Source of the DNA: Sphingomonas bacterium
Lineage (GTDB): Bacteria > Pseudomonadota > Alphaproteobacteria > Sphingomonadales > Sphingomonadaceae
Length of the DNA: 32,986 nucleotides
Direction of reading: 5' to 3'
Assembly: GCF_028292945.1 (NCBI RefSeq)
Contig: NZ_JAQGLJ010000109.1
Coordinates: 1 to 32,986, forward strand
Shown: piece after piece, positions 11,428 through 32,986 of the stretch
Layout: each line of letters begins with the position of its first letter
Position numbering within the stretch: the stretch's first letter is position 1
Made by a program: the position numbers and the translations under genes
The notes under the pieces: model-generated
Told to the model about the DNA's origin: nothing
The model's input: only the letters and a program-made list of their open reading frames with translations
Database searches by the model: none

Positions 11428-11841
11428 TCAGCGCGGAAACGCTGATTCCGGCGCGAGGAGCAAGTCGGTGTGGTTGAAGTCGTTGCCCTTGAAGAGCAGC
11501 GGCTCGCCGGTCACCTTTGATAGCGCATAGGCGAAACAGTCGCCGAAGTTGAGGCAGGCGCGATGACCGGAGCCGCGGCCGTAGGTCGCATAGCCGAGCG
11601 CGGCAGCAGCGGCCTGCCGCTCCTCGACAGGCGACGTCTGGATGTCGAGTGCTGCTGCGAAGCTGGCTTGGACGGTGGCAGGCGTCCGGATGCCGAACCG
11701 CCGCACCAGCACCGTGCCGAACTCCATCCAGCAACCTGCCGAAACCAAGCGGCCTTGTGCGCGCGAAAGTGACAGGAGGAAGCGCGGTCGCTCGGGCTCG
11801 TCTGCAAACATTGCCACGAGGGCGGAGGTGTCAATGATCAA
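11428..11841 (-). CDS. vapC: VapC-type PIN-domain ribonuclease toxin
   Basis: A 137-residue PIN-domain protein, the toxin of a type II toxin-antitoxin pair. VapC toxins are Mg-dependent endoribonucleases that cut tRNA or rRNA. The four acidic residues are in place: Asp4 (MIIDTSALVAMF), Glu40 (CWMEFGTV), Asp101 (NFGDCFAYALS) and Asp121 (KGNDFNHTD). The start is a TTG at 11841 that overlaps the antitoxin stop (TTGA), as expected for coupled translation giving antitoxin excess. No ATG or GTG would preserve the MIIDTS start. Active-site residues are intact, so the toxin should be functional. Confidence 0.9.
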   Translation of the reverse strand: MIIDTSALVAMFADEPERPRFLLSLSRAQGRLVSAGCWMEFGTVLVRRFGIRTPATVQASFAAALDIQTSPVEERQAAAAALGYATYGRGSGHRACLNFGDCFAYALSKVTGEPLLFKGNDFNHTDLLLAPESAFPR

Positions 11842-12113
11842 CGCGCGAAGCCGTCCGGCTCGTTATCGTCGTAGATCGACTCCATGATCTCCCACGATGT
11901 CATGGCGCGGGTCTCGGGCGGCATGTTCCGGCGGACCTCGTCGATGAGCTCGTTGGCTCGCCTGATCCGTTCGGCGATCTCCTCCTCGCGACGGCTGCGA
12001 TCGTTGCGGACCGCCTCGCGGATGGTGGCCGTCACCGTGCGCCCGGTTTGGGCAGCGTACTCTCTCACCTCCCGGACGGTAGCATCGTCCTTGATGTTCA
12101 GCTGTGATGCCAT
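11838..12113 (-). CDS. vapB: VapB-type antitoxin
   Basis: A 91-residue partner of the PIN toxin. The N-terminal half (SQLNIKDDATVREVREYAAQ, then TGRTVTATIREAVRNDRSRR) resembles the ribbon-helix-helix DNA-binding antitoxins of the Rv0623/PSK-operon type. It would bind its own promoter. The C-terminal part (RRANELIDEVRRNM and following) is the likely toxin-binding, protease-sensitive tail. The ATG at 12113 has a strong AAGGAGGT Shine-Dalgarno sequence 5 bases upstream, which rules out the longer in-frame extension into the cysK region. Confidence 0.88.
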   Translation of the reverse strand: MASQLNIKDDATVREVREYAAQTGRTVTATIREAVRNDRSRREEEIAERIRRANELIDEVRRNMPPETRAMTSWEIMESIYDDNEPDGFAR

Positions 12114-13719: not shown

Positions 13720-14250
13720 ATGCATGCCCCGCTGGTGGGGATGTATGCGTTGTCGAATCGAGGCTGGTATCAAGGAGATGGCATCGGCCTTGTCGACGAC
13801 AAGGGCCGCGTTTCCATCCCTGCGGCCCTCCGCCAGACGCTCGCCGCCAACTACCCCAAGGCGAACGGCAAGGACGGCGGCACGGTGATCGTCGGCACGC
13901 ATCAGAAGCACCGTTGCCTGGTCGCCTATGACCCTGCCTATCTCGATATTCTGGTCGCCAAGCTGGAGAAGCGCGAGGCGGAGAACACCGCCGACGACGG
14001 CGAGCTGGATTACAACATCAAGCGTCGCGCCGCGGCCGGCGAAGCGGTGCCGTTCGACGGCTCCGGCCGTTTCATCATGCCCGCCTTTCCGCGCCACTAC
14101 GCCCGCATCAAGGGCCACGCCTTCTTCTACGGCGTCCTGGACATGATCGAGATCTGGGACCCGAAGACGCTGATCGAGACGACGGACTATCCCGACGTCG
14201 TGAAAGAGATGGCCGAGTTCCAAATGGCCGAACGGGGTGCGCAGCTGTGA
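13720..14250 (+). CDS. mraZ: Transcriptional regulator MraZ
   Basis: A 176-residue MraZ, the ring-forming AbrB-like DNA-binding protein that regulates the dcw operon. The first SpoVT/AbrB-like half has [16 protein letters not shown], where the DxKGRxxxP motif forms the DNA-contacting loop. The second half has [19 protein letters not shown], the paired motif. It is about 25 residues longer than E. coli MraZ. ATG 13720 (MHAPLVG) is used here; the in-frame ATG at 13741 ([14 protein letters not shown]) is about as likely, since most homologues begin some 10-12 residues before the first motif. The last codon overlaps the rsmH GTG by 4 bases. Confidence 0.93.
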
Positions 14251-15182
14251 ACGCCGCCCCCCAACACATCCCGGTCCTCCTCGACGAGGTCGTGTCCGCG
14301 CTCGCTGCTTCCCCCGGCCAGCGAATAGTGGACGCGACGTTCGGGGCGGGTGGGTACACGCGGGCGCTCCTGCAAAGGGGCGCCCGCGTGATCGCTTTCG
14401 ATCGCGATCCCGATGCGATCGCCGCCGGCCGCGCGCTGGCGTTGGACGACCTTACGCTGGTGGAGGGCAAGTTCTACGCGCTCGAACAGGCGGTGACCTA
14501 GCCGGTCGACGGGCTGACGATGGACGTCGGCGTCTCGTCGATGCAGCTCGACCAGGCGGAGCGCGGCTTCGCGTTCGGTCAGGACGGGCCGCTCGACATG
14601 CGGATGAGCCGGATCGGACCGTCGGCGGCGGACTTCTGCAACGAGGCGGACGAGGACGAGATCGCGAACGTGATCTTCCGCTACGGCGAGGAGCCGAAGT
14701 CGCGGCGGATCGCGCGCGCGATCGTCGCCGCCCGGCCGCTGACCCGTACCGGCGAGCTGGCGCGCGTCGTGCGGCGCGCGCTCGGCTGGCGCCCGCACGA
14801 CAAGAAGGACCCCGCGACGCGGACGTTTCAGGCGATCCGCATCCACATCAACCGCGAGCTGGACGAGCTGGCGGACGGGCTGGCAGCGGCCGAGCGCGTG
14901 CTCAAACCCGGCGGACGGCTGGCGGTGGTGACGTTCCACAGCCTGGAGGACCGGCTGGTGAAGCGGTTCCTGCGCGACCGGTCGGGTGCCACGCCCGGCG
15001 GCTCGCGACATCTGCCCGTCGGACCGGCGGAGCGCGATCCGAGTTTCGAGGGCGTCGGCAAGGCCGTGCGCCCCGGTGAGGCCGAGCTGGCGCGCAACCC
15101 GCGCGCGCGCTCGGCGACGTTGCGGACGGCGCGGCGGACAACCGCGGCGGCATGGTCGGAACCAGTAGGAGTAGGCGTATGA
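14247..15182 (+). pseudogene. rsmH: 16S rRNA m4C1402 methyltransferase gene interrupted by an in-frame TAG
   Basis: The reading frame covers a full-length RsmH (311 codons including the internal stop), which N4-methylates C1402 of 16S rRNA in the ribosomal P site. Codons 1-84 give the N-terminus and SAM-binding motif ([10 protein letters not shown], then [11 protein letters not shown] and AFDRDPDAI). Codon 85 is TAG (14499-14501). The frame then continues without a shift from codon 86 to 311 with [63 protein letters not shown] and [13 protein letters not shown], all good RsmH motifs. A single-base change (for example from CAG, GAG or AAG) explains it. A sequencing error, a true nonsense mutation, or readthrough are all possible. 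Restart at ATG 14520 would lack the SAM motif. Confidence 0.9.
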
Positions 15183-15856
15183 CGGCGGCGTATCGCCTGA
15201 AGGGCATCGGCTGGCTGGCGGCACTCGCCGTGGTCGTGCTCGGCTTCTACCTCGTCTCGTCACGGGTCGCGTCCGAGCGGCAGAAGCTGGACGTACTGAA
15301 CCGCTCGATCGCGGCCGCCGAGCGCGATATCCGCGCGCTGGAAACCGAGTTCGACACGCGGGCCAATCTGGCGCAGCTGGAACGGTGGAACGGCGATACG
15401 CTGTCGCTCGCCGCGCCCACGGCCGCGCAGTTCCTGCACGACGATGCCGCGCTTGCGTCGTTCGACCCTTACGCGGTCGGGCTGCCGGGCGTGAAGGTCG
15501 CGGCGCTGGTCGTGCCGGCGATGGCCCTCGAGGCCGCCCCTACGCCAGTCGAGGTGACCGCCGCTACGCAGGCCCCCGCGCTTGCACCGGCACCGGCACC
15601 GGCATCGGCAGTGATCAAGGTTGCTGCGCTCGCTCCGGTCCGCCCGGTCATCACCGATGCTGCAATTCGCGCTGTTGCGCCCAGCGGCCGCGACGCTCCG
15701 GCGATCGCGCGACTCGCCCAGGCGGCGCGAGCGACGGCGGCGGTGGCGAAGGTGCGGCCGCAGGCGGTGGCGATGCTGGACCGCCAGCTGCTGTCCGACA
15801 CGACATTTGGTGACATCATGAGCGGAGCGCGCCGGGAAGCGGGTCGCGGACGGTGA
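15179..15856 (+). CDS. ftsL: FtsL-like division protein
   Basis: A 225-residue protein in the ftsL position between rsmH and ftsI. FtsL is a single-pass inner-membrane protein that pairs with FtsB and joins FtsQ to the FtsWI synthase. It has a short cytoplasmic N-terminus, one membrane helix (about 12-32, [20 protein letters not shown]), then a coiled-coil stretch ([29 protein letters not shown]). FtsL is usually about 100-120 residues. Here a further 120 residues rich in Ala, Pro and Val follow ([12 protein letters not shown]). ATG 15179 overlaps the rsmH stop (ATGA). Identification rests on position, the helix and the coiled coil, since FtsL sequences diverge. Confidence 0.8.
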
Positions 15857-17559
15857 CCATGGTCGTCGCCCGCCCGCTGCCGGCGCGGCGCGGCAACCAG
15901 CGCGGTGCGCTGGTCGCGGTGGCACATACCCGGCTGATGATGGGGATGCTGCTGTTCGCCGCCGCGGTGGCGCTCGTGATCGGCCGGCTGGCCCTGCTGG
16001 CGGCGTTCGGCGGCGCGGAGGCGCGCGCGACCGTGGCGACGCTGGCGGCGCGCAGCGACATCGTCGACCGCAACGGGCATCCGCTCGCGCGCACGATCGA
16101 CGCATGGACGATCGCCGTCCATCCGCGCCAGATCATGGGCGACAAGTCGGAGCTTGCCGGCAGGCTCGCGGCGCTGATGCCCGATCGGGGCGATCAGACG
16201 TGGTTTCATGCACAACTGACCAAGGACGTCGCCTTCACCTATCTGCAGCGCCGTGCCGCGCCGGCACTGGTCGAGCAGGTCAACGCGCTGGGCGAGCCGG
16301 CGCTGGTGTTCGCGCGCGAGACGCAGCGGCTGTACCCGCAATCGACCATGGCTGCGCACGCGCTGGGCTTCCTGTCCGCCGACGGGCACGGGATGAGCGG
16401 GATGGAGCGGGTGCTGGATGCACAATTGCTCGATCCCAAGGCCCGCGGCGTGCCGGTGCAGCTGTCGCTCGATACGCGCGTGCAGGCGGCGATGGAGTCC
16501 GAGCTGGGCCGGGCGATGGGGGCCTATCAGGCAAAGGCCGCCTCGGGGCTGGTGCTGGACGTCCACACCGGCGAGCTGCTGGCGATGGTGTCGCTGCCGG
16601 TGTTCAACCCCAACCGCGTCGGCATGGCGGGCACGGAGCAGCTGCGCAACGTCAACACCCAGAGCGTCTACGAGCTGGGTTCGGCGTTGAAGCCGATCGC
16701 GATCGCGGCCGCGATCGACTATGGCGTCGTGACGTCGATGTCGCGCCGCTTCAATGCGGCGCAACCGCTGAAGGTCGGTCGGTTCACGATCAAGGACGAC
16801 CATGCGCAGAACCGCTGGCTGAACATCCCCGAAACGCTGATCCATTCGTCCAACATCGCCACCGCGCGCATCGCCGACGAAATCGGGGCGGCGCGGATGC
16901 AGGCGTGGTTCCGCAAGCTGGGCTTCGACAAGAAGCCGGAGATCGAGCTGATCGAGAAGGGGCGGACGCTGTGGCCGACCTTCTGGGCGCGGACGACGAC
17001 CATGACGACGGCGTACGGACATGGCATGGCGGTGACGCCGCTGCACCTCGCAAACGCCTACGCGACGCTCGTCAATGGCGGCATCGCCCGGCCCGCGACG
17101 CTGCTGAAGAAGCCGGCCGGACCGGTTCCGGGCACGCGCGTGATGAGCGAGGCGACCAGCGCGCGGCTGCGCCAGCTGCTGCGGCTGATCGTGCTGGAGG
17201 GCACCGGTCGCAAGGCCGAAGCGCCGGGCTATCGCGTCGGCGGCAAGACCGGCACCGCCGAGGTGGCGACCGGCGGGGGTTACGCCAAGAACGCCAACGT
17301 CTCCACCTTTGCCGCCGCGTTCCCGATGGATGCGCCGCGGTTCGTGGTGATCGCGATGATGGACTCGCCCAAGCGCGTCGAGGCGAACCAGTTCCAGACC
17401 ACCGCCGCCTATACCGCCGCGCCCGTGGTCAGCCGCGTGATCTCACGCACTGGCGCCATCCTGGGTGTGTTGCCCGACGAGCGCCGCGAGGTCGATCTCG
17501 CGGACCTTCGCCCGATGATCTGGCGCGCGCCGGGCGAGGTTGGCGCGCATGGCGAATAG
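15853..17559 (+). CDS. ftsI: Septal peptidoglycan transpeptidase FtsI (PBP3)
   Basis: A 568-residue class B penicillin-binding protein that crosslinks septal peptidoglycan with FtsW. One membrane helix (about 30-50, MGMLLFAAAVALVIGRLALL) anchors it. The pedestal domain has DIVDRNGHPLA. The transpeptidase motifs are SALK (in ELGSALKPIAIA), SSN (HSSNIATARIA) and KTG (VGGKTGTAEVA). All three are intact, although SALK replaces the SxFK seen in many FtsI. GTG 15853 overlaps the ftsL stop; an in-frame ATG two codons on (15859) is also possible. It ends 3 bases before murE. Confidence 0.95.
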   Translation: MTMVVARPLPARRGNQRGALVAVAHTRLMMGMLLFAAAVALVIGRLALLAAFGGAEARATVATLAARSDIVDRNGHPLARTIDAWTIAVHPRQIMGDKSELAGRLAALMPDRGDQTWFHAQLTKDVAFTYLQRRAAPALVEQVNALGEPALVFARETQRLYPQSTMAAHALGFLSADGHGMSGMERVLDAQLLDPKARGVPVQLSLDTRVQAAMESELGRAMGAYQAKAASGLVLDVHTGELLAMVSLPVFNPNRVGMAGTEQLRNVNTQSVYELGSALKPIAIAAAIDYGVVTSMSRRFNAAQPLKVGRFTIKDDHAQNRWLNIPETLIHSSNIATARIADEIGAARMQAWFRKLGFDKKPEIELIEKGRTLWPTFWARTTTMTTAYGHGMAVTPLHLANAYATLVNGGIARPATLLKKPAGPVPGTRVMSEATSARLRQLLRLIVLEGTGRKAEAPGYRVGGKTGTAEVATGGGYAKNANVSTFAAAFPMDAPRFVVIAMMDSPKRVEANQFQTTAAYTAAPVVSRVISRTGAILGVLPDERREVDLADLRPMIWRAPGEVGAHGE

Positions 17560-32537: not shown

Positions 32538-32986
32538 GTTGCCATTGGACCGCGATGCCTGAGCGGTTATGACCGCCGCGTACCACGAGACGAGCGACGG
32601 AACCGTTGCCGTTGGACCGCGATCTCTGAGCGGTTATGACCGCCGATCGCCGCCCTATTGAGGCGCATAAGTTGCCGTTGGACCGCGATCTCTGAGCGGT
32701 TATGACGTCGCGGTGGTGCTTCTCCATCTTTCGTAGGTTGCCGTTGGACCGCGATCTCTGAGCGGTTATGACAATGCCAGCCGAAGCTACGGTGCGGCAT
32801 TGGTTGCCGTTGGACCGCGATCTCTGAGCGGTTATGACCGCGGCTTCACGCCACGAGCGCAGCAGTTGGTTGCCGTTGGACCGCGATCTCTGAGCGGTTA
32901 TGACGGGCAACGGTTACACCGAAGGCCAATGCGCGTTGCCGTTGGACCGCGATCTCTGAGCGGTTATGACCTTCCGCTTTCACGAT
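32538..32986. CRISPR. CRISPR array, 36-bp repeats, cut by the window end
   Basis: Seven repeats at 32538, 32605, 32671, 32737, 32803, 32869 and 32935, each 36 bp. Repeats 2-7 are identical: GTTGCCGTTGGACC at the left, GATCTCTGA in the middle, GCGGTTATGAC at the right. Repeat 1 differs at positions 7, 20 and 21. Spacers 2-6 are 30 bp and unrelated; spacer 1 is 31 bp; spacer 7 is cut at 16 bp. ACCGC (repeat 12-16) pairs with GCGGT (26-30). Sizes fit type II; the GTTG start and partial dyad suit II-C with crRNA read along the plus strand. Orientation is inferred, not shown. cas genes must lie right of the window or be absent. Confidence 0.95.
32612..32640 (+). promoter_or_regulatory. Repeat-internal promoter (shown in repeat 2, present in all)
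   Basis: Within each repeat TTGGAC (positions 8-13) and TATGAC (31-36) lie exactly 17 bp apart. They resemble -35 TTGACA and -10 TATAAT, each matching only in part. Transcription would begin about 7 bases into the next spacer. Promoters inside repeats are known from Neisseria type II-C arrays. The three changes in repeat 1 fall outside both hexamers. Confidence 0.4.

Follow-up and report, generated by a model that had tools for sequence, protein, structure and literature searches.

RsmH, also named MraW (PF01795; 3TKA in E. coli), is the N4-methyltransferase of C1402 in 16S rRNA. Young pseudogenes formed by a single nonsense change are of an ordinary kind. In B. subtilis, a laboratory loss-of-function truncation of mraW by a premature stop is described in a living strain; this allele is a one-base insertion in suppressor isolates, through which the last 109 residues are lost (PMC13317604). 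Knock-outs of rsmH in E. coli are viable with reduced growth (PMC5053481), and an rsmH deletion in Pseudomonas was unobtainable for the authors (PMC13245932).

The rsmH gene described here lies in a stretch of 32,986 nucleotides (the window), which is contig C89 in a 130-contig, 2.79 Mb draft genome of a Sphingomonas bacterium. It resembles the B. subtilis allele in having a premature stop in the same gene of a living strain (PMC13317604), and differs from it in that no frameshift is present and the cut falls after residue 84. It shares with an ordinary young pseudogene a single stop, with the reading frame and sequence conservation preserved to either side of it, but rsmH is a gene kept by nearly all genomes examined. 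With survival without rsmH and premature-stop truncation of mraW already in print, the case can be regarded as a rare event of an ordinary kind. The features of the locus are as follows.

14499..14501, + strand: in-frame TAG at codon 85 of rsmH (open reading frame and Pfam profile)
14247..14501, + strand: 5' portion of rsmH, made up of 84 codons plus the TAG, including the motif FDRDPD (Methyltransf_5 profile positions 3-85)
14502..15182, + strand: downstream part of rsmH, the rest of the enzyme, in frame to TGA (Methyltransf_5 98-308 on 14520-15179)
14520..14522, + strand: first in-frame ATG past the stop, a predicted possible restart (weak ribosome-binding-like site)
13720..14250, + strand: mraZ, its stop overlapping the GTG of rsmH (Pfam)
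15179..15856, + strand: ftsL, its ATG overlapping the TGA of rsmH (position only, no Pfam match)
15853..17559, + strand: ftsI, an open frame ending in TAG (position and reading)

Counted from the GTG at 14247, the frame is open to the TGA at 15180-15182 apart from the TAG that follows its first 84 codons. A whole-genome search with the PF01795 profile returned a single Methyltransf_5 locus and no second copy or paralogue; the match covers profile positions 3-308 of 309 with 285.7 bits and contains one TAG. The full domain of RsmH is thus present in a frame that is interrupted at codon 85, and the two pieces still match the profile when they are searched separately. The read-through frame aligns with E. 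coli RsmH over residues 6-300 (E 3.2e-70), and the nearest named RsmH relatives in a protein search are from Sphingomonas. The position of the locus between mraZ and ftsL-ftsI is that expected for the dcw cluster, and only the TAG departs from the described gene. Open frames are also seen for mraZ, ftsL and ftsI, and for the dcw genes that follow as far as ftsZ. The first-pass annotation, which had reported a TAG in an otherwise open rsmH within an intact dcw operon, is therefore borne out by the frame reading and the Pfam profile, and the stop is real in the assembly.

Several other elements were seen at a distance from this locus. A CRISPR-like array of seven repeats of about 36 nt, with a spacing of 66-67 nt, stands at the contig end (window 32538-32986); its exact repeat had no match in viral contigs, and a gene of the Cas9 family (TIGR01865) is found on contig C77. 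On the minus strand, a PIN-domain gene adjoins an Rv0623-like gene (11428-12113), and the two are probably a toxin-antitoxin pair.

Comparisons with relatives were made in four overlapping samples of genomes. In the first, rsmH was matched in 59 of 61 genomes, and the only full-length match with a stop was that of the present genome; a fragmentary match in G038 carries a TAG that lies no more than 16 bases from a contig end. In the genus sample, 293 of 295 genomes gave a match, two of them very weak (G219 and G290). Among about 150 of the best matches listed, the other stops were TGA codons in G011, G030, G194 and G299, all beyond query residue 304-305 and thus in the tail. Of the 147 genomes in the order sample, 143 matched, with the gene in pieces in G038, G401 and G403, and a stop was present in 1 of 140 full-length matches, again the present genome. 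The phylum sample, composed of genomes with a completeness of 95 or more, gave 150 matches in 150 genomes (six as partial matches only), and among the matches listed the present genome was the only one of 144 full-length matches with a stop. An alignment of 139 related loci, in which some species are possibly present twice, with the read-through protein showed a single stop within the aligned part, at residue 305 of one locus (L026). Codon 85 is a sense codon, of many kinds, in 138 of these 139 loci and is uncovered in the remaining one. The rsmH of G401 (G401:C53:3836-4800), a draft that is 62% complete, is split over two reading frames, indicating a frameshift or an error in that draft. Among plasmid records, 14 matched, and one of them, from S. 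parapaucimobilis with 74% identity, covered 80% or more of the query. An internal stop in a full-length rsmH is therefore very rare among the matches listed, and the near-universal retention of the gene implies that its loss is selected against.

The age of the lesion can be approached through the conservation of its two halves. Among the best 120 of 8000 scored candidate proteins, the most similar is 91% identical. The three nearest proteins are intact, are 87-91% identical (87-89% over the alignment), and have Glu at the site of the stop, where the best 120 show Ala in 70, Glu in 18, Gly in 16, and other residues. Intact closest relatives and the lack of a second copy are both features of a young pseudogene. 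Departures at conserved positions number 9/218 in the interrupted protein and 10/217, 6/217 and 8/218 in the three nearest relatives. Divided at the stop site, these counts are 2/47 before and 7/171 after it here, 3/47 and 7/170 in the intact P0002, 2/47 and 4/170 in P0003, and 2/47 and 6/171 in P0004. Relative-rate counts over seven outgroups were about equal against P0002 (7-13 here, 7-10 in P0002), and were higher here against P0003 (13-20 versus 4-9) and P0004 (11-20 versus 7-13). Since a closely similar excess is seen in the intact P0002 (12-18 versus 4-10 against P0003, and 10-19 versus 6-13 against P0004), it is not particular to the interrupted gene, and the idea that this rsmH has changed faster than intact copies was rejected. 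The GC3 values of the upstream and downstream parts, 0.85 and 0.90, stand beside 0.82-0.92 in eight neighbouring genes. Each half is as well conserved as its counterpart in the closest intact proteins, which indicates either a young lesion or an error, and the gene gives no sign of long decay. The earlier proposal that the change is recent, an error, or tolerated fits all of these findings.

Just before the stop, the unusual residues K75, Y77 and T84 were observed (window 14469-14498). Relative to the three nearest relatives, four private changes fall in codons 75-84, with P 0.006 for a place that was chosen afterwards and P 0.126 for any place, so that this cluster is a hint only. Y77 is absent from the best 120 protein matches and present in 2 of the 139 related loci, and the idea of concentrated change near the stop was set aside as soft. 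A duplicated or chimeric patch at this place was also rejected, because the 131 bases of 14430-14560 have no match in the genome other than themselves.

Two consequences of the stop had been proposed, a separation of the SAM-binding motif from the rest of the enzyme and a disturbed translational coupling into ftsL and ftsI. The SAM-contacting residues of E. coli RsmH fall on both sides of the stop; a division of the site is thus retained, but the whole site does not lie upstream. In B. subtilis, the D52A and D100A variants of MraW act as mutants (PMC13317604), and the equivalents of D52 and D100 would, by their positions, lie on either side of the stop. With the SAM residues divided in this manner, the 84-residue product is predicted to be inactive, as is a restart product from the ATG at 14520. 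As for coupling, the overlaps exist: GTGA at the mraZ/rsmH junction, ATGA at the rsmH/ftsL junction, and the GTG of ftsI at 15853 with the ftsL stop at 15854-15856. The ribosome-binding-like sites were estimated at -8.6 kcal/mol for the rsmH start, -6.8 kcal/mol for ftsL, and a weak -3.1 kcal/mol for the ATG at 14520, which lies 18 nt past the stop. With a site of its own before ftsL and a weak one at the possible restart, the effect of the stop on ftsL and ftsI expression is uncertain as judged from these sites.

The explanation that we favour, at a probability of roughly 55%, is a recent single-base nonsense allele in the only rsmH found, which would abolish N4-methylation of 16S C1402. The near-universal retention of rsmH and the unobtainable deletion in Pseudomonas (PMC13245932) count against it. 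Of the readings considered it is the most likely, with a base error close behind. Under this second reading, a possible one to which we give somewhat less weight, the TAG stems from a wrong consensus or base call in the 130-contig draft and the organism has a whole rsmH. It would explain why no other full-length match listed in the order and phylum samples has an internal stop; the assembly has visible gaps, in the middle of prfA and among the tRNAs, and the odd residues clustered before the stop could mean a poor local consensus. Some odd residues recur among relatives, however, Y77 in the 2 related loci mentioned above and N141 in 15 of 139. A reference-free scan for same-frame coding on either side of a stop was run on twenty 20 kb stretches, equal to 400 kb or 14% of the genome; it is blind to frameshifts and detected 2345 of 2998 positions in its own training genes. 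It returned 43 candidate stops, of which 21 are flanked by 60 or more codons in each direction. In the window it gave five: the stop in rsmH, those that end ftsI and murF, and two more. Pfam searches on the pieces around 9 of the 21 identified six pairs as adjacent genes, with a match for each partner; among them, a LapA match is below the curated cut-off, and the flagellar rod pairs share domain families yet have a separate N-terminal domain in each piece. Of the other three, one has a complete enzyme on the downstream side alone, and two are without any match. The remaining 12 candidates were judged by eye, and most resemble antisense frames. Thus, no second gene split within one family domain like rsmH was found among the 9 of 21 candidates tested with Pfam in the 400 kb sample, and none of 25 ABC-transporter domain matches in the genome contains a stop, which suggests that stop-making errors are apparently uncommon in this assembly. 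The gene of the partner methylase, rsmI, is intact as well. We infer that the base is probably a true allele in the organism, although a single error at this codon is plausible too.

The other readings retain a working enzyme, and all are unlikely. The first is that read-through or suppression of the amber codon is frequent enough to yield full-length RsmH. The site of codon 85 accepts many residues, and nearly every residue inserted there would probably be functional; in addition, the gene for RF1 is interrupted by a gap in the assembly, and the tRNA set is incomplete. Suppressors with a CTA anticodon have the one-step parents Ser-CGA, Gln-CTG, Tyr-GTA, Leu-CAA, Lys-CTT, Glu-CTC and Trp-CCA, and tRNAs with each of these anticodons are present in the genome. 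The search for an amber suppressor that the first-pass annotation had advised gave no CTA anticodon among the 41 tRNAs found (tRNA loci L032-L072), in a set from which at least four expected tRNAs, Ile-GAT, Ala-TGC, Gly-GCC and Ser-GGA, are missing. The Ser-CGA tRNA was found twice, with one copy at a contig end. TAG terminates ftsI, murF and ftsZ, that is 3 of the 17 window genes read, and no second internal TAG appeared in the tested part of the 400 kb sample. Amber recoding is therefore without support in the tRNAs found and the window genes read, the tRNA set and the RF1 gene being incomplete in the assembly, and it was set aside. A related and still less probable reading, the least likely of all, is that UAG termination is weakened by an altered or lost RF1 and that the amber-interrupted rsmH is made by read-through; if true, it would tie ribosome methylation to termination efficiency. 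The prfA gene is split over two contig ends (G000:C105:15-248 and G000:C85:3-425), with residues 8-87 and 218-358 present and about 130 middle residues unassembled, while it is whole in each of four relatives searched. The flanking frames resemble hisS and prmC (named by eye), as they do in the relative's locus L214, and a plain assembly gap is thus the simple reading. A link to RF2 autoregulation, suggested by the Pseudomonas report (PMC13245932), was also discarded: prfB is matched without a break, starting at residue 2 or 3, in the present genome and four relatives, so there is no programmed frameshift site to connect with rsmH. Very improbable too is the separate production of two fragments that assemble into a working split enzyme. 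The in-frame ATG shortly past the stop, the family matches of both pieces, and the position of the stop near a length difference between the present protein and E. coli RsmH speak for it; against it, the site before that ATG is much weaker than that of the rsmH start, and no full-length relative listed in the order and phylum samples is split likewise. The Met at this ATG is invariant in 21 aligned relatives, so the ATG was not gained with the stop.

According to the favoured nonsense-allele reading, a single-base change would have created the amber at codon 85, and translation would end after 84 residues. Because neither fragment is expected to be active, N4-methylation of 16S rRNA C1402 would be lost. 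The cell would tolerate the loss of RsmH in the manner of the mutants of E. coli and B. subtilis, and expression of ftsL and ftsI is predicted to continue from the ribosome-binding-like site of ftsL, perhaps aided by restart at the ATG at 14520. Should the base be an error, the finding would serve solely as a caution in gene annotation. A real base would mean the natural loss of a ribosomal P-site methylation retained by almost all relatives, in a strain that could show the role of the methyl group outside laboratory mutants.
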